From: Cryptosporangium minutisporangium
GTDB taxonomy: Bacteria > Actinomycetota > Actinomycetes > Mycobacteriales > Cryptosporangiaceae
DNA: 64,000 bases
Assembly (NCBI RefSeq): GCF_039536245.1
Contig: NZ_BAAAYN010000018.1
Coordinates: forward strand, 62,001-126,000
Direction: 5' to 3'
This document shows positions 16,422 through 24,431 of the stretch, in pieces. The notes below the pieces were generated by a model. The model saw nothing but the letters and a program-made list of their open reading frames with translations. It had not been told where the DNA came from and made no database searches. Within the stretch, counting starts at the first letter, position 1. The number at the start of each line of letters is the position of its first letter. The position numbers and the translations under genes are program-made.

Positions 16422-16718
16422 ATGCAGCGCGAACACCCGTCAGAACGAGCAGCGGACGTGGCCTCGGCGAGCACCGGGATCCCCCCGGCGACCGCTCGGG
16501 AATTCTGGGTACGGGTGGCCATCGACGGCACGGCTCGGGTGGTTCGGATCGTGGCGCGTTCGCCCCAGGACGCGCTGCGCCGGTTCCACCAAGATCTGCA
16601 TCGCGGCGGGCGCCTGCAGTACTCGACCGCCGACGGCGACCTGGTGGTGGAGTGGGGCAACGTGGCGACGCTCGAAGTCGGTCCGATCGTCCGGGTGGTC
16701 CGTGTCGTCGAACCGTGA
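16422..16718 (+). CDS. Hypothetical small protein
   Basis: A 98-residue protein from ATG 16422 with strongly GC-biased third codon positions. Residues 25-98 alternate beta-like and helical stretches (FWVRVAIDGTARVVRIVARS, then PQDALRRFHQDLH), suggesting a small alpha/beta domain. No family recognised. The 254-bp region before it holds a small ACCCTC/GAGGGT hairpin (16210-16227) and an AT-rich stretch that may contain promoters. It is convergent with the Gfo/Idh gene, with 4 bp between them. Confidence 0.55.
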   Translation: MQREHPSERAADVASASTGIPPATAREFWVRVAIDGTARVVRIVARSPQDALRRFHQDLHRGGRLQYSTADGDLVVEWGNVATLEVGPIVRVVRVVEP

Positions 16719-16722
16719 ACCG

Positions 16723-17715
16723 CTACCAGCTGAAAGCGGCCACCGTCACCGGCGTGGCGTCCGCGGCCGCCGCCTGCAATGCCGCGGCCACCCGGCCGGT
16801 GCGCTCGCTCGCGGCGAGCGGCAGCGGGCTGGCCGCACCGGCCCGCGCCGCCTCGACGAACGCCTCGACCTGCAGCTGGTAGTGGTCGACGACCGGTAGC
16901 TCCTCGCTCCAGGTCTCCTTCTCGGTGCGCACGATCACCCCGCCCGGCTCTCCGTCCTTCGCCCAGGCGTTCGGCACGACGATCGTGCCGGACTCGCCTT
17001 GGAGCTGGTATTCCGCGCAGGGCCCGTAGTCGATGCTGTAGTCGAGCACCGCCCGCCGGCCGTCACCGAAGTCCAGCACCCCGGCCAGACTGGTCTCCAC
17101 CGACTCCCCCGGCCGGACGGTCGACTGCCCGCTGACCGTGAGCGGCGCGCGGTCGAAGGCCGCACAGGCCACGTCGACGGCGTACACACCGACGTCCCAC
17201 GTCGCTCCCCCGCCCAGCGCGGGGTCCAGGCGGATGTTCCCGCTCCCGCTGGCGATCGGGTACGCGAACGACGCCCGTACCAGGCGGAGCGGGCCGACGG
17301 CGCCCTCGGCCAGCAGCGCGGCGGCCCGCGCCTGCTGCGGGTGGAAGCGGTACATGAACGCCTCCATCACCAGCCGGTCCGCTGCCCGGGCCGCGTCCGC
17401 GATGCGCGCGAAGTCGGCGCCGCGCAGCACCAGCGGCTTCTCCACCAGCACGTGCTTGCCCGCGGCCAGCGCGCGGAGCGTCCACTCCAGATGCTCGGTG
17501 TTGGGGAGCGGTACGTAGACCGCGTCCACGTCGGGGTCGGCCACCAGCGCCGCGTAGTCGGGCTGCGCCCGACAGCCGAAGCGGTCGGCCACGGCCTCTG
17601 CTCCGCGCCGGTCCCGGCTGGCGACCGCCACCAAACTGCTTCCGGCGGACGCCTGAATGGCCGGCATCAGTAGCGAGCTGATGTACCCGGTGGCGCCCAG
17701 CACTCCCCACCTCAC
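16723..17715 (-). CDS. Gfo/Idh/MocA-family oxidoreductase
   Basis: A 330-residue NAD(P)-dependent oxidoreductase. N-terminal Rossmann region WGVLGATGYISSLLMPAIQ; the family Lys in HVLVEKPLVLRG; then the C-terminal alpha/beta dimer domain (YRFHPQQARAAALLAEG onwards). Members oxidise or epimerise sugars, inositols and cyclitols. GTG 17715 overlaps the GMC oxidoreductase stop as GTGA, so it is the last gene of the cyclitol-type operon that begins with the sugar-phosphate cyclase. I infer a role in oxidising or reducing a ring hydroxyl of the C7-cyclitol. Confidence 0.85.
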   Translation of the reverse strand: MRWGVLGATGYISSLLMPAIQASAGSSLVAVASRDRRGAEAVADRFGCRAQPDYAALVADPDVDAVYVPLPNTEHLEWTLRALAAGKHVLVEKPLVLRGADFARIADAARAADRLVMEAFMYRFHPQQARAAALLAEGAVGPLRLVRASFAYPIASGSGNIRLDPALGGGATWDVGVYAVDVACAAFDRAPLTVSGQSTVRPGESVETSLAGVLDFGDGRRAVLDYSIDYGPCAEYQLQGESGTIVVPNAWAKDGEPGGVIVRTEKETWSEELPVVDHYQLQVEAFVEAARAGAASPLPLAASERTGRVAAALQAAAADATPVTVAAFSW

Positions 17716-19196
17716 GAGCGTCCTCCGATCAGAAGCTCCGCCGCGCGCTCGGCGACGACGATCGTCGCGGCCTGGATGTTGCCGGTGATCATCTCCGGTA
17801 TCACCGAGGCGTCGGCCACCCGGAGGCCCTCCACGCCGCGCACCCGCAGTTCGGGGTCGACCACCGCGTCGTCGTCGGTGCCGAAGCGGCAGGTACCGAC
17901 CGGGTGGAACTGGGTCTCCGCGCCTGCCCGCACGAAGGCCTCGAGTTCCCGGCGGCTGGGCTCCGGCGAACGGTCCGCGGCGCCGTCCACGCGGAGGTCG
18001 GCGAGCGGCTTGGTACCCGCGATCGCGCGCGCGATCCGAACACCCTCGATCAGCGTCTCGACGTCGTCCGGGTCGGCGAGGTAGTTCGGGTCCAGGCGGG
18101 GCGGGTCGCCGGGGGCCGGAGAGCGCAGCGTGAGCGTGCCCCGGCTGCGCGGTCGGGTCACCGCCGGACCGATCGTGAAACCACCGCCGAGCGCGTCGGC
18201 GTGGTTGAGGTTCTCCATCGGGGCGAACGAGAGCTGGATGTCCGGCGCGGGCAGTCCCGGGCGGCTCGCGACAAAGCCGCCGGCCTCGCCCAGGTTGGAC
18301 TCGCGCGCCAGCGGCACCGTCTCCCGCGTCCGGTAGGAGACCGAGACCTGCACGTGGTCGTGCAGGTTCGCGCCGACGCCCGGCAGGTCGTACAACGGTG
18401 TCACCCCGCACGAACGGAGCTGCGCGGCCGGCCCGATCCCGGAGAGCAGGAGCAGCTGCGGGCTGGCGACCGTACCGGCGGTGAGCACGATCTCGCGGGC
18501 TGCGCGGTACGTGCGGCCACCGCTGACCACTCCGACGGCCCAGCCGCTCTCGACGACGATCCGCTCCACCGGCGAGTCGGGCACCACCGTGAGGTTGCCG
18601 CCGGCCAGCGCCGGACGGAGGTACCCCTCGACCGTGTGGTGGCGGCTCGGTCCGCGGCGGGTGATCCGGTACAGGCCGATGCCCTCCTGGCTCCCCACGT
18701 TGAAGTCCGGGTTGGCCGGGAACCCGGCGGCGGTCGCCGCCTCGACGAACGCCAGCGCGTACGGGTGCGGCCGGTGCTGTGGCTCGACGCTCACCCGTCC
18801 CGACGCCGCCAGCGCGCGAAACCGCTCGCCCATGGCGTCCGCACCCCAGGAGGGCCCGCCGTAGCGGGCCCACGCCTCGAAGTCGGACGCCGCACCACGG
18901 ATCCACACCAGCGCGTTGATCGCGCCGGAGCCCCCGACCAGCCGACCGCGCGGCCAGGACAGGACCCGGCCACCGAGGTGGCGCTGCGGTTCGGTGCGGT
19001 AGCGCCAGTCGTAGTCGGAGTCGAGCAGCCAGGGCCAGCCGCTCGGCCGGGTGATCCGGTCGTCCTCGACCCACGGCCCCGCCTCCAGGACGAGAACTCG
19101 CGCGTCCTCGGCGAGCCGGGCAGCGACGACGCACCCGGCGAGCCCCGCGCCGACCACCACGTAGTCGTACTCGGCTTCAGCTCGATCAACTCGCAA
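17712..19196 (-). CDS. GMC-family FAD oxidoreductase
   Basis: A 494-residue glucose-methanol-choline oxidoreductase. FAD motif YVVVGAGLAGCVVAARLAE; signature 1 RGRLVGGSGAINALVWIRG; signature 2 GTVASPQLLLLSGIGPA; active-site region HPVGTCRFG, then GNIQAATI. The first codon appears to be TTG 19196, overlapping the SDR stop by about 11 bp; no ATG or GTG fits before the FAD motif. Such enzymes oxidise primary or secondary alcohols of sugars and polyols. Being coupled to a C7-cyclitol synthase gene suggests a cyclitol alcohol as substrate (inference). Confidence 0.88.
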   Translation of the reverse strand: MRVDRAEAEYDYVVVGAGLAGCVVAARLAEDARVLVLEAGPWVEDDRITRPSGWPWLLDSDYDWRYRTEPQRHLGGRVLSWPRGRLVGGSGAINALVWIRGAASDFEAWARYGGPSWGADAMGERFRALAASGRVSVEPQHRPHPYALAFVEAATAAGFPANPDFNVGSQEGIGLYRITRRGPSRHHTVEGYLRPALAGGNLTVVPDSPVERIVVESGWAVGVVSGGRTYRAAREIVLTAGTVASPQLLLLSGIGPAAQLRSCGVTPLYDLPGVGANLHDHVQVSVSYRTRETVPLARESNLGEAGGFVASRPGLPAPDIQLSFAPMENLNHADALGGGFTIGPAVTRPRSRGTLTLRSPAPGDPPRLDPNYLADPDDVETLIEGVRIARAIAGTKPLADLRVDGAADRSPEPSRRELEAFVRAGAETQFHPVGTCRFGTDDDAVVDPELRVRGVEGLRVADASVIPEMITGNIQAATIVVAERAAELLIGGRS

Positions 19197-19953
19197 GGAA
19201 GCCTCCGTCGACCGCGACGACCTGGCCGTTGACGTAGCTCGCGGCGGACGAGAACAGCCAGAGCGCGACGCCGGCGACCTCGTCGACCCGGCCCACCCGC
19301 CCGGCCGGGATCAGCGCTTTCCAGGCCGTGGCCCCGCCGACCGTGCGCTCGGACTCGGCGAGCATCGCGGTCTCGATCGGGCCGGGCGCCACACCGTTGA
19401 CGCGGATGCCGTGCGCCGCCTCCTCCATCGCGGCCACCCGGGTGAGCGCCACCGCGGCGTGCTTGGACGCGATGTACGCGGCGACGCCTCCGAACACCGC
19501 ACGGAAGCCGTGCACCGACGTGTTGTTGACGATCCCGCCGTGGCCCTGCTTGCGCATCTGCGCGATCTCGTACTTCAGGCACAGCCAGAGTCCGCGCGAG
19601 TTGACCGCGAACGTGGCGTCGAACGCCTCTTCGGTGAGGTCGGCGACGCCACCGCCGTGCGCAGCGCCCGCGTTGTTGAACGCGAAGTCCAGGCTGCCGT
19701 AGCCGGCCACCGTCGCCTCGACGAGCGCGCGGACGTCGTTTCCGTCGGTGATGTCGGCGCGGTGGAACCGGGCTTCTCCCCCGGCGTCGCGGATCGCGGC
19801 GGCCGCGGCCTCACCCCGCTCGGCGTCCCTGGCGGCGATCACCACGCGCATCCCCGCTGCGGCGAACACCTCGGCGGCCCCCTGGCCGATGCCGGTGCTG
19901 CCGCCGGTGACGAGTACGACTCGCCCATCCAGGCCCGGTACCGGGGCGCTCAT
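19186..19953 (-). CDS. Short-chain dehydrogenase/reductase
   Basis: A classical SDR of 255 residues from ATG 19953, which overlaps the cyclase stop as ATGA. Nucleotide motif VLVTGGSTGIGQG, structural motif NNAGAAHG, catalytic Ser in NNTSVHG and Tyr/Lys in AAYIASKHAA are all present, so it should be active. The frame remains open farther upstream but only inside the cyclase gene. It is probably one of three oxidoreductases acting on the cyclitol product. Confidence 0.9.
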   Translation of the reverse strand: MSAPVPGLDGRVVLVTGGSTGIGQGAAEVFAAAGMRVVIAARDAERGEAAAAAIRDAGGEARFHRADITDGNDVRALVEATVAGYGSLDFAFNNAGAAHGGGVADLTEEAFDATFAVNSRGLWLCLKYEIAQMRKQGHGGIVNNTSVHGFRAVFGGVAAYIASKHAAVALTRVAAMEEAAHGIRVNGVAPGPIETAMLAESERTVGGATAWKALIPAGRVGRVDEVAGVALWLFSSAASYVNGQVVAVDGGFLAS

Positions 19954-21149
19954 CGCGCACCGACCGGGGCGAGCTCCGCCATCGCGGCGGCGGCGGCATC
20001 GAGCTCGGCCGGCGTGACGTCGTTGAGGAACCGCGCGGAGCCGATGCCGGCCATCACCGGCAGGTTCTGGTCGCCGTTGCGGTGCCGGACGGTGTCGGCG
20101 AGCGCCTCGCCGAGCGCGTCCGCGTCGCAGAACAGCGGATGCCAGACCGGGAGGCCGAGCGACCGGGCGCACGCCACGACCCGGTGGACTTCGTCGCTCC
20201 GCAGCAGGCCGCGGTGCGCGGCGAGGAACGCGGAGAACACGCAGTCGAGCGTGACCGCTTCACCGTGGTAGAGGTCGGGCAGCGCCCGCATCTCCAGCAG
20301 CGGCGAGAACGAGTGCCCGTAGTCGACACTGCGTTCGAGTTGTTTTTCCCATAAATTTGGCTGCAGTTCCTCGACCATTCCCTGGATCGCCCGGCCGATC
20401 ACCTCGTCCGCCGGATTTGCGCCCGTCCAGAGGGGCGGTCCACCGCTGGCAGCCGTCCCACCGGGCGGCGCGGCATCCTGGAATTTGCCCTCGATCAGCT
20501 CGGCGCCGTACCGCTCCAGCAGCCCGAACAACCTCGCGTCCTTGATCAGCGCCATCTTGAAGATCTCGCCCATTCCGTTGCGGAGCTGACGCGTCGGGAG
20601 GGTGGCGAGAAAACTCCGGTCGATCAACGTCCGGAGCGGTGGCGAGTACGAACCGAGCCGGTTACGAAATCCCTCGAAATTCACCCCGGTCTTCGCCGCG
20701 ACGCTCACGTCGACCAGGCCGAGCAACGTCGTCGGCACCCGGATGTAGGGAATGCCGCGCCGGTACAGGCTGGCCGCGAGGCCGACGATGTCGAGCATGA
20801 CGCCGCCCCCGATCGCGATCGGGGGGTTGCGCACCCGGAACGCCTTGGCTTCGTTCATCGCGCTGGCCACCGAGAGCACCAGGTCGATCGTCTTCTGCTC
20901 CTCCGCGCTCGGGAGCGAGACCAGGTGGTACGGCACCCGGTGGTACTCCAGGTACGCCCGGAGCCGGTCGCCGTACAGCCGGTCGATCGTGGTGTCGACC
21001 AGCACCAGCTGGGTGTCGCTCGGGTCCGATCGATCCACCGAACCGAGCAGAGCCACATTGTCCACCGACAACAGATCGACACTTTCCACGATCTCGTAAT
21101 GCACTCCGAGCTCGGCCCGGACTTCCCATTTCGCCGACGGACTCGTCAC
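19950..21149 (-). CDS. Sugar-phosphate cyclase, 2-epi-5-epi-valiolone synthase-like
   Basis: A dehydroquinate-synthase-fold enzyme of about 399 residues. NAD motif IAIGGGVMLDIVG; family signature PTTLLGLVDVSVAAKTGVNF then FRNRLGSYSPP, which marks sedoheptulose-7-phosphate cyclases rather than AroB. Metal ligands are seen in NGMGEIFKMALIKD, DYGHSFSP and YHGEAVTLD. Known members (AcbC, ValA, CetA) cyclise sedoheptulose 7-phosphate to 2-epi-5-epi-valiolone. I prefer GTG 21149 (AAAGG upstream) over GTG 21173. Parts of the gene (about 20330-20700) are more AT-rich than the neighbours, hinting at transfer. First gene of a coupled four-gene operon. Confidence 0.88.
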   Translation of the reverse strand: MTSPSAKWEVRAELGVHYEIVESVDLLSVDNVALLGSVDRSDPSDTQLVLVDTTIDRLYGDRLRAYLEYHRVPYHLVSLPSAEEQKTIDLVLSVASAMNEAKAFRVRNPPIAIGGGVMLDIVGLAASLYRRGIPYIRVPTTLLGLVDVSVAAKTGVNFEGFRNRLGSYSPPLRTLIDRSFLATLPTRQLRNGMGEIFKMALIKDARLFGLLERYGAELIEGKFQDAAPPGGTAASGGPPLWTGANPADEVIGRAIQGMVEELQPNLWEKQLERSVDYGHSFSPLLEMRALPDLYHGEAVTLDCVFSAFLAAHRGLLRSDEVHRVVACARSLGLPVWHPLFCDADALGEALADTVRHRNGDQNLPVMAGIGSARFLNDVTPAELDAAAAAMAELAPVGAR

Positions 21150-21173
21150 CTCATGGCCTTTCTCGTCCGGCAC

Positions 21174-21447
21174 CTACTGGCGAGTAGACCGTATGCAGAT
21201 GACAGCGAGTGGTCAATATCCGAATTTCTGAATCGAGGCAAATTCCTGGCCATAACTTTTCTTTCCGGAGCCGTCAAGCCGCTTGTGAATAATTACAATC
21301 AGGCTGGGCCTGTTATCACCGCACGACAATTTTCGAGCAAGTCTTTCATCACCTTGCCATTGGCGGATGGCGGATACTTCCCTTGTCCGTTCGTCACCGG
21401 GATTCGTACTGTCGATTCGGCGCCGGCCGAAGAGGGCGAGGTGGAAG
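21174..21447. promoter_or_regulatory. AT-rich divergent promoter region of the cyclitol locus
   Basis: A 274-bp spacer between the divergent cyclase and phosphatase arms, much richer in A/T than flanking DNA (for instance 21215-21300). It contains a 16-bp palindrome, TTGTGAATAATTACAA (21283-21298, one mismatched pair), a good candidate for a regulator site controlling both arms. No regulator gene lies in the cluster. Confidence 0.55.
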
Positions 21448-22104
21448 GTGCCGTTGATCTCACGGCCCGAGGACGCCGACTGCTTGGTCTTCGACTGGGA
21501 CGGCACGCTGGTGGACAGCACGTCCGCGAACTACCGGGCGCTGGCCGGAACGCTCGCCGGCTACGGCATCACGCTGGACGAAGACTGGTACCGCGCCAGG
21601 ACCGGCATGTCGTCCGACGAGATGATCGACGTGCTCTCCGCCGGGTCCCTGGACGCCGTCGCCGTCAGCGCGGAGCGGGACGCCCTGTTCCTGCAGACGC
21701 CGGGGGCGGTACGGGAACTGTCGGTCGTCGTCGACATCGCCCGGGCCCACGCCGGACGGATACCGCTGGCGGTCGCCTCCGGCGGCTCCGGGCCGGTGAT
21801 CCGGGCGACGATGCGCACGCTCGGCCTCGACGGACTGTTCGACACGGTGGTGACCAGGGAGGACGTCCGCGCGGGCAAGCCGGAGCCGGACATCTTCCGG
21901 CTCGCGGCGGAGCGGGTCGGGGTGCCGCCGGAGCGCTGCCTGGTCTACGAGGACAGCGACGAAGGACTCCTCGCGGCCGCACGCGCCGGGATGAGCGCGA
22001 TCGACGTCCGGCCGTGGCGATACCACCCGCCCCGCACCTCACCACCGCACTCCGAAGCGTCGCCCGACGTGGACACTGCCTCTCGGAAGGACCGAGCCTC
22101 ATGA
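21448..22104 (+). CDS. HAD-family phosphatase (beta-phosphoglucomutase-like)
   Basis: A 218-residue HAD subfamily IA hydrolase. Motif I DWDGTLVDS with nucleophile and acid Asp, motif II VASGGS, motif III GKPEPDIF, motif IV VYEDSDEG. The alpha-helical cap lies between motifs I and II. GTG 21448 puts motif I about 14 residues from the start, as usual; an in-frame ATG at 21367 would add 27 basic residues. The stop overlaps the glycosyltransferase start (ATGA). In C7-cyclitol pathways phosphatases dephosphorylate cyclitol or pseudosugar phosphates; that role is inferred here. Confidence 0.85.
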   Translation: MPLISRPEDADCLVFDWDGTLVDSTSANYRALAGTLAGYGITLDEDWYRARTGMSSDEMIDVLSAGSLDAVAVSAERDALFLQTPGAVRELSVVVDIARAHAGRIPLAVASGGSGPVIRATMRTLGLDGLFDTVVTREDVRAGKPEPDIFRLAAERVGVPPERCLVYEDSDEGLLAAARAGMSAIDVRPWRYHPPRTSPPHSEASPDVDTASRKDRAS

Positions 22105-23531
22105 GCGCGCACCGCCTGTACGACGTCACGCCCCCGGCTCGCGACCCGCAGCTGCTGGAGCAGGTGATCGGCGCGGAGCGGTTCGCGGCGTTCGTCGCGG
22201 CCGGACGGGAGACCGCCGCGCGCTTCGACGGCCGGAAGATCATCAACATCAACTCGACCCCGGCCGGCGGCGGCGTCGCCGAGATGCTGGAGAGCCTGGT
22301 CTCCTACGCCCGGGGGCTCGGCATCGACGCCCAGTGGCACGTCATCGAGGGCGACGACCGGTTCTTCGAGATCACCAAGCGGATCCACAACCACATCTAC
22401 GGCTTACCCGGGGACGACGGTCCGCTGGGCGAGGCCGAGCACGCCGACTACTTCGCCGTCCACCAGGGCGTGGCGGACCGGCTCGCGGAGATCGTCGGCC
22501 CGGACGACATCGTCGTGGTGCACGACCCGCAGCCCGCCGGGCTGGTGCCGCTCGCCAAACAGCTCGGCGTCCCGGTGCTCTGGCGCTGCCACATCGGCGT
22601 CGACGTCAGCACCCCGCACGACGTGGAAGGGTGGGAGTTCATCCGGCGGTACGCCGAGCCTGCCGACACCTACCTGCTGACCCGGGTGGGGTACGCACCG
22701 GAGTGGATGGATCGGAGCCGGCTGCGGACGGTGCGGTCGTCGATCGACCCGATGGCGCCGAAGAACCGGCCGCTCGAGCCGGCGTTCGTCCGGGACGTGC
22801 TGGTGCACTACGGGCTGATCGCCGGCGAGCAACCCGGTCCGCTGGCCTACCCCCGGAAGGACGGCTCGACCGGCTGGGTCACCCGGCGAGCCGACATCCT
22901 GCGAGCCGGACCGCCCGCACCGGCGGACGCTCCGCTCGTCGTCCAGATCTCCCGATGGGACCGGATGAAGGACATGCCCGGTGTCGCGCGGGCCTTCGCC
23001 GACCACCTCCTCGACACCGACGCACACCTGGCGCTCGTCGGGCCGGCGATCAGCGGATACGCCGACGACCCGGAGGGCGCCGAGCAGATGCTGGAGGCGA
23101 TGAGCGCGTGGCGCGCGCTGCCCGGCTCGGCGCGGGAACGGATCCACCTGGCGTGCATCCCGATGACCGACCTGGAGGAGAACGCGCTGGTGATCAACGC
23201 GCTGCAGCGCCACGCGGCGGTGGTCACCCAGAAGAGCATCTCGGAGGGGTTCGGGCTCACGGTCGTCGAGGCGATGCTCAAGGGAACGCCGGTGGTGGGC
23301 AGCACGGTCGGCGGGTTGCTGGAGCAGATCGTGGACGCCGAGTCCGGGCTGCTCGTGGAGGCGACCGACCTACCAGGGTTCGCCGACGCGCTGCGGCGCT
23401 TGCTCACCGACAGCGACTACGCCGAGAAGATCGGCGCGGCGGGCCGCGAACGGGCGTTGGACCTCTTCACGGCCGATCGCCACCTGGCCCGCTACGGCAA
23501 GCTCATCGCCGAAACGCTGGCCCGCGTCTGA
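22101..23531 (+). CDS. GT4 glycosyltransferase, trehalose synthase (TreT)-like; possible pseudosugar transferase
   Basis: A 476-residue GT-B retaining glycosyltransferase. N-domain features: NINSTPAGGGVAEMLESLV and VLWRCHIGVDVSTP; hinge SSIDPMAPKN; C-domain ISRWDRMKDMPGV and the donor-binding KSISEGFGLTVVEAMLKG. These match TreT-type trehalose synthases, which join nucleotide-glucose and glucose. Because it is translationally coupled to a HAD phosphatase and divergent from a C7-cyclitol synthase, it may instead use a cyclitol acceptor or donor, as pseudo-glycosyltransferases such as ValL do (a different GT family). A plain trehalose role remains possible. Confidence 0.85.
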   Translation: MSAHRLYDVTPPARDPQLLEQVIGAERFAAFVAAGRETAARFDGRKIININSTPAGGGVAEMLESLVSYARGLGIDAQWHVIEGDDRFFEITKRIHNHIYGLPGDDGPLGEAEHADYFAVHQGVADRLAEIVGPDDIVVVHDPQPAGLVPLAKQLGVPVLWRCHIGVDVSTPHDVEGWEFIRRYAEPADTYLLTRVGYAPEWMDRSRLRTVRSSIDPMAPKNRPLEPAFVRDVLVHYGLIAGEQPGPLAYPRKDGSTGWVTRRADILRAGPPAPADAPLVVQISRWDRMKDMPGVARAFADHLLDTDAHLALVGPAISGYADDPEGAEQMLEAMSAWRALPGSARERIHLACIPMTDLEENALVINALQRHAAVVTQKSISEGFGLTVVEAMLKGTPVVGSTVGGLLEQIVDAESGLLVEATDLPGFADALRRLLTDSDYAEKIGAAGRERALDLFTADRHLARYGKLIAETLARV

Positions 23532-23642
23532 CCCGCACGGGATTCTCGATCGGCCTGTGGACAACCCGTGGGCCACGTCCGCTTAGCTGGACGATGGGCG
23601 GCACCGAATCACTCCGGTTGCCGAGAGCGAGGTGCCGCCCCG

Positions 23643-24431
23643 ATGAACATGCCGAAGCGCGCACGCAGACTGGCCGAACGGGAGCGCCGGGCGGAACGCC
23701 ACGCCGCTCTTGTCGTCGAGCGAACGGGCGATCCCAACGAGGCACTGACCGCGGCCGCCGAGAGGTCTGGGGACGAGTACCTCATCGCTCTCGTGCGCGC
23801 GGCGGTGGAGGTCGGATACTTCGTCACCGAGGAGAACGAGCGCCTCTACTCGGTTCAGGAGGTCGAGGATTACGAGGCTGCGCTCTCCCGGCACTTGGAC
23901 CAGGCACCCTGCGACCCCTGTGCGGAGTACTGCGCGGAGGCCACCGAGCAGCTGTACGAGATCATCTCCGCCTTGGTCGCCGGAACCGCCGGGGCCACGG
24001 CGGCGCGCTCCATCCTCGAACTCCCCGAACGCGTCTCCGAGGAGGCGGACGACGAAGCGGGTGCGGCCGCCTACACGGCTGTCCTGAGGTGCGCCCTAGT
24101 TCTGCTGTTCGCCGCCCGACGAGCCGGTATCGACGAGGTCGATCTGCGCGACGCCACCGCATGGGTCGACGGCGCTCTCGGCCGCGAGTACGCCCGGCTG
24201 GCTGCCGTGGTGGCGATCCCGGTGTGCAGCGTGAAAGACCCTGTTGCGCAGCAGGAGCTCTACGGCAAATCCGGTGAGCTGACCGTGGGAGACCTGCTCG
24301 ACACGCTCGGGGACGAAGTCGTTCCCGCGATGATCTGGCTGGCCGCCGGTCTCGTGGCCACGGTGGGAGATCGGTACGTGCACTGGCTCCGGCAGGTCGT
24401 CCTCGAGTCCTTGGAGGACGACGACTCCTAA
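23643..24431 (+). CDS. Hypothetical protein
   Basis: A 262-residue, mostly helical, acidic protein from ATG 23643. After a basic N-terminus (MPKRARRLAERERRAERHAA) comes a region with a CDPCAEYC Cys cluster (about residues 87-94) and a final long helical part. No family recognised. It is convergent with the metallophosphoesterase gene; the two stops overlap by 4 bp (24428-24431). A DnaA-box-like TGTGGACAA is found at 23556-23564 in its upstream region. Confidence 0.65.
   Translation: MNMPKRARRLAERERRAERHAALVVERTGDPNEALTAAAERSGDEYLIALVRAAVEVGYFVTEENERLYSVQEVEDYEAALSRHLDQAPCDPCAEYCAEATEQLYEIISALVAGTAGATAARSILELPERVSEEADDEAGAAAYTAVLRCALVLLFAARRAGIDEVDLRDATAWVDGALGREYARLAAVVAIPVCSVKDPVAQQELYGKSGELTVGDLLDTLGDEVVPAMIWLAAGLVATVGDRYVHWLRQVVLESLEDDDS

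Follow-up and report, generated by a model that had tools for sequence, protein, structure and literature searches.

Background

Trehalose glycosyltransferring synthase (TreT; GT4, EC 2.4.1.245) forms trehalose from nucleoside diphosphate (NDP)-glucose and glucose, and is known structurally from Pyrococcus horikoshii (2x6q) and T. uzoniensis (6zj4). His92 of the P. horikoshii enzyme belongs to the acceptor pocket. Besides glucose, TreT enzymes can use galactose, mannose, fructose and many analogues of glucose as acceptors (PMC4490520, section 3.2). Another set of retaining GT-B enzymes, the pseudo-glycosyltransferases ValL and VldE (GT20) and AcbS (GT5), is encoded together with 2-epi-5-epi-valiolone synthase (EEVS) and phosphatase genes. 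The ValL-type reaction uses an NDP-activated olefinic cyclitol (PMC3441724, PMC9200736), and the donor, GDP-valienol, is reached through kinase and nucleotidyltransferase steps (PMC9200736, PMC12041759). In this study we analyse a TreT-like glycosyltransferase gene (22101-23531) in a stretch of 64,000 nucleotides from Cryptosporangium minutisporangium (contig NZ_BAAAYN010000018.1; the whole stretch is hereafter called the window, and positions are counted from its first letter).

The original prediction for this gene was that a cyclitol may take the place of glucose, by analogy with ValL, which was regarded as a relative of trehalose synthase. That relationship must be corrected, as ValL and VldE are related to the trehalose-6-phosphate synthase OtsA (GT20) and not to TreT (PMC3441724). 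Glucose is also found on EEVS-derived C7-cyclitol units. For example, VldK/ValG of the validamycin pathway glucosylates validoxylamine (PMC3441724, PMC12041759), and streptol carries glucose both in the streptol-beta-glucoside of leaf-nodule Burkholderia and in streptol-alpha-glucoside (A-79197-2), described as a natural product (PMC8599487), which shows that alpha-glucosyl-cyclitols exist. The term 'glycosyltransferase' has 0 occurrences in the main text of PMC8599487.

A TreT-type glycosyltransferase

Domain, sequence and fold comparisons all place the 22101-23531 product with TreT, as originally predicted. The protein carries the Pfam domains TreT_GT1 (N-terminal; E=3e-42, 144.1 bits against a cut-off of 27) and Glycos_transf_1 (C-terminal; E=1.2e-20, 74.2 bits against 26.4), and its top matches among PDB sequences are the TreT structures 6zj4 (2.4e-57) and 2x6q (6.6e-57). 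Glyco_transf_20 is not among the five Pfam families that match the protein, which therefore falls outside GT20. An AlphaFold2 model built from 26 aligned family members has a mean pLDDT of 92.8, and both structural comparisons of this model were topped by TreT (6zj4: Z 45.7, 1.8 A, 395 residues), with ValL and VldE far below (Z 28.5). Judged from the model, the product is a TreT-type retaining GT4 enzyme with a GT-B fold closest to that of TreT. The cut-off of the NCBIfam equivalog TreT_Thcocales (NF041139) was not reached (210 against 775 bits), although that model was built for Thermococcales; hence we use the name 'TreT-type' rather than 'TreT'.

The protein is ~34% identical to the solved TreT enzymes in the structural alignment and shares with them the EX7E motif and the equivalent of His92, but it exceeds them in length by ~60-75 residues, carrying one insert ahead of the second domain and another, G-x-D, following WRCHI that is common to bacterial relatives. 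In the alignment Glu382, Glu390, Lys290, His164 and His96 correspond to P. horikoshii Glu326, Glu334, Lys244, His155 and His92 (Table 1). A comparison of this kind had been proposed as a check on the acceptor. All tested residues are kept and TreT is itself promiscuous, so the active site was set aside as an acceptor test and does not decide the matter.

Table 1. Features of the glycosyltransferase gene and its cassette (window positions)
Feature	Position	Strand	Remarks
TreT-type GT4 glycosyltransferase gene	22101-23531	+	476 aa; ATG at 22101, stop ends at 23531
His96 codon	22386-22388	+	equivalent of acceptor-pocket His92 of P. horikoshii TreT
EX7E motif	23244-23270	+	Glu382 and Glu390 (TreT Glu326 and Glu334); in 37 of 37 aligned rows
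HAD-family phosphatase-like gene (HAD)	21448-22104	+	reading frame opens at ATG 21367; GTG 21448 is our choice of start
EEVS-type cyclase gene (EEVS)	19950-21173	-	divergent from the HAD and glycosyltransferase genes
Short-chain dehydrogenase gene (SDR)	19186-19953	-	ATG (19953-19951) overlaps the EEVS stop
GMC-family FAD oxidoreductase gene (GMC)	17712-19196	-	Pfam, NCBIfam
Gfo/Idh/MocA oxidoreductase gene (GFO)	16723-17709	-	Pfam
Divergent intergenic region	21174-21447	.	A+T-richer: GC 0.55 in 21200-21499, ~0.7 around
Six-gene cassette GFO-GMC-SDR-EEVS / HAD-glycosyltransferase	16711-23535	.	not present at the syntenic site of either G394 or G396; right edge approximate

The divergent cyclase and the six-gene cassette

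The divergently transcribed cyclase has ValA (4p53) as its best solved relative (E=2.4e-110), ahead of the DDGS structure 5tpr (1.4e-65), and is 50% identical to ValA as against 35% to the DDGS of Anabaena. To separate the two types, 27 columns were used in which 24 ValA-like rows (ValA included) are at least 90% constant and DDGS differs; the window cyclase and its sister sequence were excluded from the rows that chose them. The window cyclase has the ValA residue at 24 of the 27 columns and the DDGS residue at 1, whereas a DDGS-like control row (L045) has 2 and 16, respectively. By these residues the cyclase is EEVS-like, of the ValA type, in agreement with the C7-cyclitol synthase seen there by the original prediction. 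The genome has one further gene of the 3-dehydroquinate (DHQ) synthase family.

The coupling of the glycosyltransferase to a phosphatase was likewise borne out, as the HAD reading frame overlaps the glycosyltransferase start by ATGA. GTG was taken as the HAD start because the resemblance to the sister-species protein sets in at residue 27. Pfam and NCBIfam both detect a HAD hydrolase domain in this protein, and among the NCBIfam matches listed (25 of 30) only HAD-IA subfamily cut-offs were reached, with no equivalog. On the opposite strand SDR, GMC and GFO trail EEVS, overlapping or nearly so. The promoters of both arms are presumed to lie in the divergent intergenic region, where a promoter scan found no sigma-70 consensus; an Rfam scan of 10-36 kb of the window gave no match.

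In Pfam and NCBIfam comparisons, none of the six genes encodes a kinase, nucleotidyltransferase or dehydratase. Relative to the system of ValA, genes of the ValB (nucleotidyltransferase), ValC (kinase) and ValL (GT20) types are missing from the cassette. The glycosyltransferase differs from ValL, VldE and AcbS in family and in having no donor-activation genes beside it in the cassette. The position of the gene away from trehalose genes also holds for the 29 window proteins scanned against Pfam (a part of the window's reading frames), among which none besides the glycosyltransferase itself is a trehalose gene. In the whole genome there is one TreT_GT1 gene, the one described here, and one GT20 (OtsA-type) gene, away from the cassette.

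Presence and absence within the genus

Four genomes of the genus were compared: that of the window (G000), G395, G394 and G396. In G395 the order GFO-GMC-SDR-EEVS / HAD-glycosyltransferase is kept, with the EEVS 89% and the glycosyltransferase 91% identical. The glycosyltransferase is under purifying selection between these two species, as are the other cassette genes (dN/dS 0.17, compared with 0.15 for EEVS, 0.15 for SDR, 0.20 for HAD, 0.23 for GFO and 0.25 for GMC). In G394 and G396 no match was found to the EEVS or the glycosyltransferase at thresholds of E 1e-50 and 1e-20, the GMC gene has relatives of 38-44% only, and the syntenic stretches gave no match to any of the six genes. Window positions 16719 and 24435 are only ~105 bases apart in G394, and in G396 the left flank joins a LacI/ABC/GH31 operon. 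The same operon follows the glycosyltransferase in G395 (L041/L090, C8, ~293.4-299.4 kb) and stands without the cassette in G396; none was found at the corresponding point of the window (23535-23643). G000 and G395 carry all six genes and the other two genomes carry none of them at the corresponding site, so the genes appear to have been gained or lost together as one unit. The membership of the glycosyltransferase in a cyclitol cassette, and with it a link to cyclitol chemistry, is well supported.

Recurrence of TreT-like genes beside cyclases

TreT relatives (E<=1e-40) were found in 25 of 394 class-sample genomes and 12 of 377 order-sample genomes, 35 genomes overall, and 33 neighbourhoods were examined (~12-19 kb, or the window for G000; G009 and G506 were left out because of short contigs). 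Five of these include a DHQ-synthase-family cyclase (G000, G395, G528, G269 and G596). At 2-3 cyclase genes per 4 Mb, at least 4 of 33 would arise by chance with a probability of ~3e-4 to 1e-3, a value to be read as a guide only, since related genomes are not independent. Seen from the cyclase side, 23 of the 25 genomes found to have an EEVS were examined (the loci of G543 and G725 were fetched to ~4 kb), and a TreT-like gene is near the EEVS in three: G000, G395 and G528. Four distant cyclases (G426, G411, G402, G095) were left out of the EEVS count, three of them being 64-67% identical to DDGS. One genome counted as negative, G564, has two weak C-terminal glycosyltransferase matches (E 1e-6 and 1e-7). 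TreT-like glycosyltransferases occur in cyclase clusters of three further bacterial families, one of them with an EEVS.

The G528 locus (L115, C4:1-19900) combines a TreT-like glycosyltransferase and an EEVS with a ROK kinase, ADH, xylose-isomerase-like, HAD, GMC and MFS genes, and looks like an uncharacterised C7-cyclitol glycoside cluster. It adjoins a GH13 gene. The loci of G269 (L085, C4:35000-54000) and G596 (L134, C1:1290500-1309500) each hold an AroB-like cyclase, a TreT-like glycosyltransferase and HAD, xylose-isomerase-like, RmlD-like and BadF-type genes, with the HAD gene close to the glycosyltransferase in G269 and within ~3 kb of it in G596. Their cyclases are 67% identical and stand apart from three housekeeping-type rows in a FastTree phylogeny. 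G528 and G269 share GMC (77-79%), MFS (66-67%) and close glycosyltransferases while their cyclases differ, as would be expected if the glycosyltransferase acts on cyclase products. At the G232 locus (L071, C1:1534000-1553000), EEVS-SDR-GMC-GFO is accompanied by MFS, a HAD gene (51% identical) and a divergent APH-type kinase. No TreT-like gene lies in these 19 kb, and G232, itself a genome of the class sample, is not among the 25 of that sample that matched. With the cassette core and HAD present but no TreT, the glycosyltransferase looks like an added step.

A phylogeny of 37 glycosyltransferase rows, from which the fragmentary rows L098, L026, L100 and L030 had been dropped beforehand, places the cyclase-linked enzymes at two positions: the window sequence pairs with that of G395, while those of G528, G269 and G596 make up a clade with support. 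The tree favours 2 recruitment changes, a single change being seen in 0% of 200 bootstrap trees; forcing a single clade costs 12.4 log units, which the approximately unbiased test does not reject (p=0.227). Two separate recruitments of TreT into cyclase clusters are thus likely on phylogenetic grounds. Across 27 generic bacterial relatives, 132 columns show at least 80% constancy; of these, the window enzyme and its sister both depart at 18, the G528/G269/G596 clade at 22, and both groups at 6. The strongest departures of the window pair are Ser213 (Pro in 27/27) and Ile181 (Leu in 27/27), and the three members of the other clade all have His in place of the WRCH Arg.

Ten neighbour genes scanned from six ordinary TreT-like loci include no trehalose or cyclitol gene. 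A search of named contigs returned one relative, from a metagenome-assembled genome of Acidimicrobiia (51%), with no cyclase in 21 kb. Plasmid records matched the glycosyltransferase (22) and the EEVS (20), with no accession common to the matches listed (20 of 22 and 20 of 20). Three plasmid regions were inspected; the Embleya one is unannotated, and the EEVS cluster of S. clavuligerus has a family A glycosyltransferase, with no TreT annotated. By title and start of abstract, none of the open-licence literature matches listed describes a TreT-type glycosyltransferase in a cyclitol cluster. A TreT-like gene in a different metabolic context (44%; L130, G639:C15:206500-225500) adjoins DUF4915/TPP-enzyme and class II aldolase genes.

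Proposed pathway and alternative explanations

The cassette probably makes a C7-cyclitol that the glycosyltransferase glucosylates from NDP-glucose, giving an alpha-glucosyl-cyclitol; we infer the donor, acceptor, linkage and order of steps, as well as the roles of the phosphatase and the three oxidoreductases. The EEVS would convert sedoheptulose 7-phosphate to 2-epi-5-epi-valiolone, and the SDR, GMC and Gfo/Idh enzymes would bring its oxidation state and stereochemistry closer to those of a glucose-like cyclitol. The TreT-type enzyme would then move glucose, with retention, from NDP-glucose of primary metabolism to a cyclitol hydroxyl. The HAD phosphatase would dephosphorylate either the cyclitol or the product, the latter perhaps a carba-trehalose or a pseudodisaccharide resembling streptol-alpha-glucoside. 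NDP-glucose is favoured as donor because the cassette has no cyclitol-activation genes, and an alpha-glucoside is expected because transfer is retaining. Since TreT is promiscuous towards acceptors, a glucose-like cyclitol could be accepted without new residues, a point that sequence neither proves nor excludes. The OtsA-type GT20 gene elsewhere in the genome would serve trehalose formation, which also counts for a cyclitol acceptor. Transfer of glucose to a cyclitol would be normal glycosyl transfer, albeit to an unusual acceptor, and not pseudo-glycosyl transfer. The original prediction therefore survives in that a cyclitol acceptor is the best reading, given the cassette unit and its recurrence; its ValL-like pseudo-glycosyltransferase is not supported, given the missing activation genes and the ordinary TreT residues.

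Several observations weigh against this pathway. Most TreT-like neighbourhoods (28/33) have no cyclase match, and 20/23 EEVS genomes have no TreT-like match. The cyclases of G269 and G596 are AroB-like rather than EEVS-like, and are additional to other DHQ-synthase genes. The five cyclase-linked glycosyltransferases form only two groups in the tree, for which a single origin is not rejected, and the tested acceptor and catalytic residues show no change that sets the enzyme apart from TreT. The cassette includes neither a kinase nor a transporter gene, and gives no evident sign of a phosphorylated substrate on which the HAD enzyme could act. No assay of the bacterial relatives considered here is known to us.

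The alternative that survives best, though we regard it as unlikely, is an ordinary TreT that makes trehalose and whose place in the cassette is accidental or serves stress protection. The conserved P. horikoshii catalytic and acceptor residues, the TreT_GT1 domain and a modelled fold by far closest to TreT are what such an enzyme would be predicted to have. Its presence or absence together with the EEVS cassette, the recurrent association with cyclases, a cassette without a trehalose gene in a genome that has a GT20 gene, and the missed TreT_Thcocales cut-off (with the reservation on its Thermococcales origin) argue in the other direction.

Slightly less likely again is transfer of glucose to a different acceptor, for example a cyclitol phosphate that HAD would then dephosphorylate in an OtsA/OtsB-like order, or another small alcohol or sugar. 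ValL/ValO and VldE/VldH act in that order (PMC12041759, PMC3441724), and both the ATGA overlap and the HAD genes near the glycosyltransferases of G269 and G596 are consistent with it. The cassette has no kinase gene, however, and the HAD relative beside the TreT-less core of G232 suggests that this phosphatase may belong to the cyclitol pathway rather than act for the glycosyltransferase. The same locus weakens the coupling as proof of a phosphorylated disaccharide, and it was not taken as such.

It is improbable that the enzyme is a GT4 pseudo-glycosyltransferase transferring a cyclitol from an NDP-cyclitol to glucose or another cyclitol. The EEVS context and the ROK kinase of the G528 cluster would suit it, and there is precedent in two other retaining GT-B families (PMC9200736, PMC12041759); moreover, pseudo-glycosyltransferases are hard to tell from glycosyltransferases by sequence alone, and a further uncharacterised family is already suspected (PMC9200736). 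Against this stand the six cassette genes without kinase, nucleotidyltransferase or dehydratase (the search for activation genes covered the cassette), the dependence of the SNi mechanism proposed for VldE on an olefinic donor (PMC3441724), and the much lower fold similarity of the model to ValL and VldE than to TreT. There is an equally slim chance of a further independent family, in which a TreT-derived GT4 enzyme using an NDP-cyclitol or joining two cyclitols, with activation genes elsewhere, would have evolved separately in the window genus and in the G528/G269/G596 clade.

Other regions of the window

The 27-41 kb part of the window is a sugar-catabolism region with a rhamnose-isomerase-like gene, ABC sugar-transporter genes and a LacI regulator; neighbouring genes were labelled RhaB, RhaD and Lut solely by inspection of their translations. 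At 5.2-11.9 kb, acyltransferase, KAS III, KAS and carboxyltransferase genes follow a PucR-type regulator and form a fatty-acid-synthesis-like group.

Implications

The cassette would represent a compact route to carba-sugars bearing an alpha-linked glucose; inhibitors of glycosidases and of plant growth are among the members of this class. At least four bacterial families have TreT-like GT4 enzymes encoded in cyclase clusters, and a TreT-like glycosyltransferase beside a sugar-phosphate cyclase may serve as a sequence handle for finding more such clusters, including those with AroB-like cyclases.
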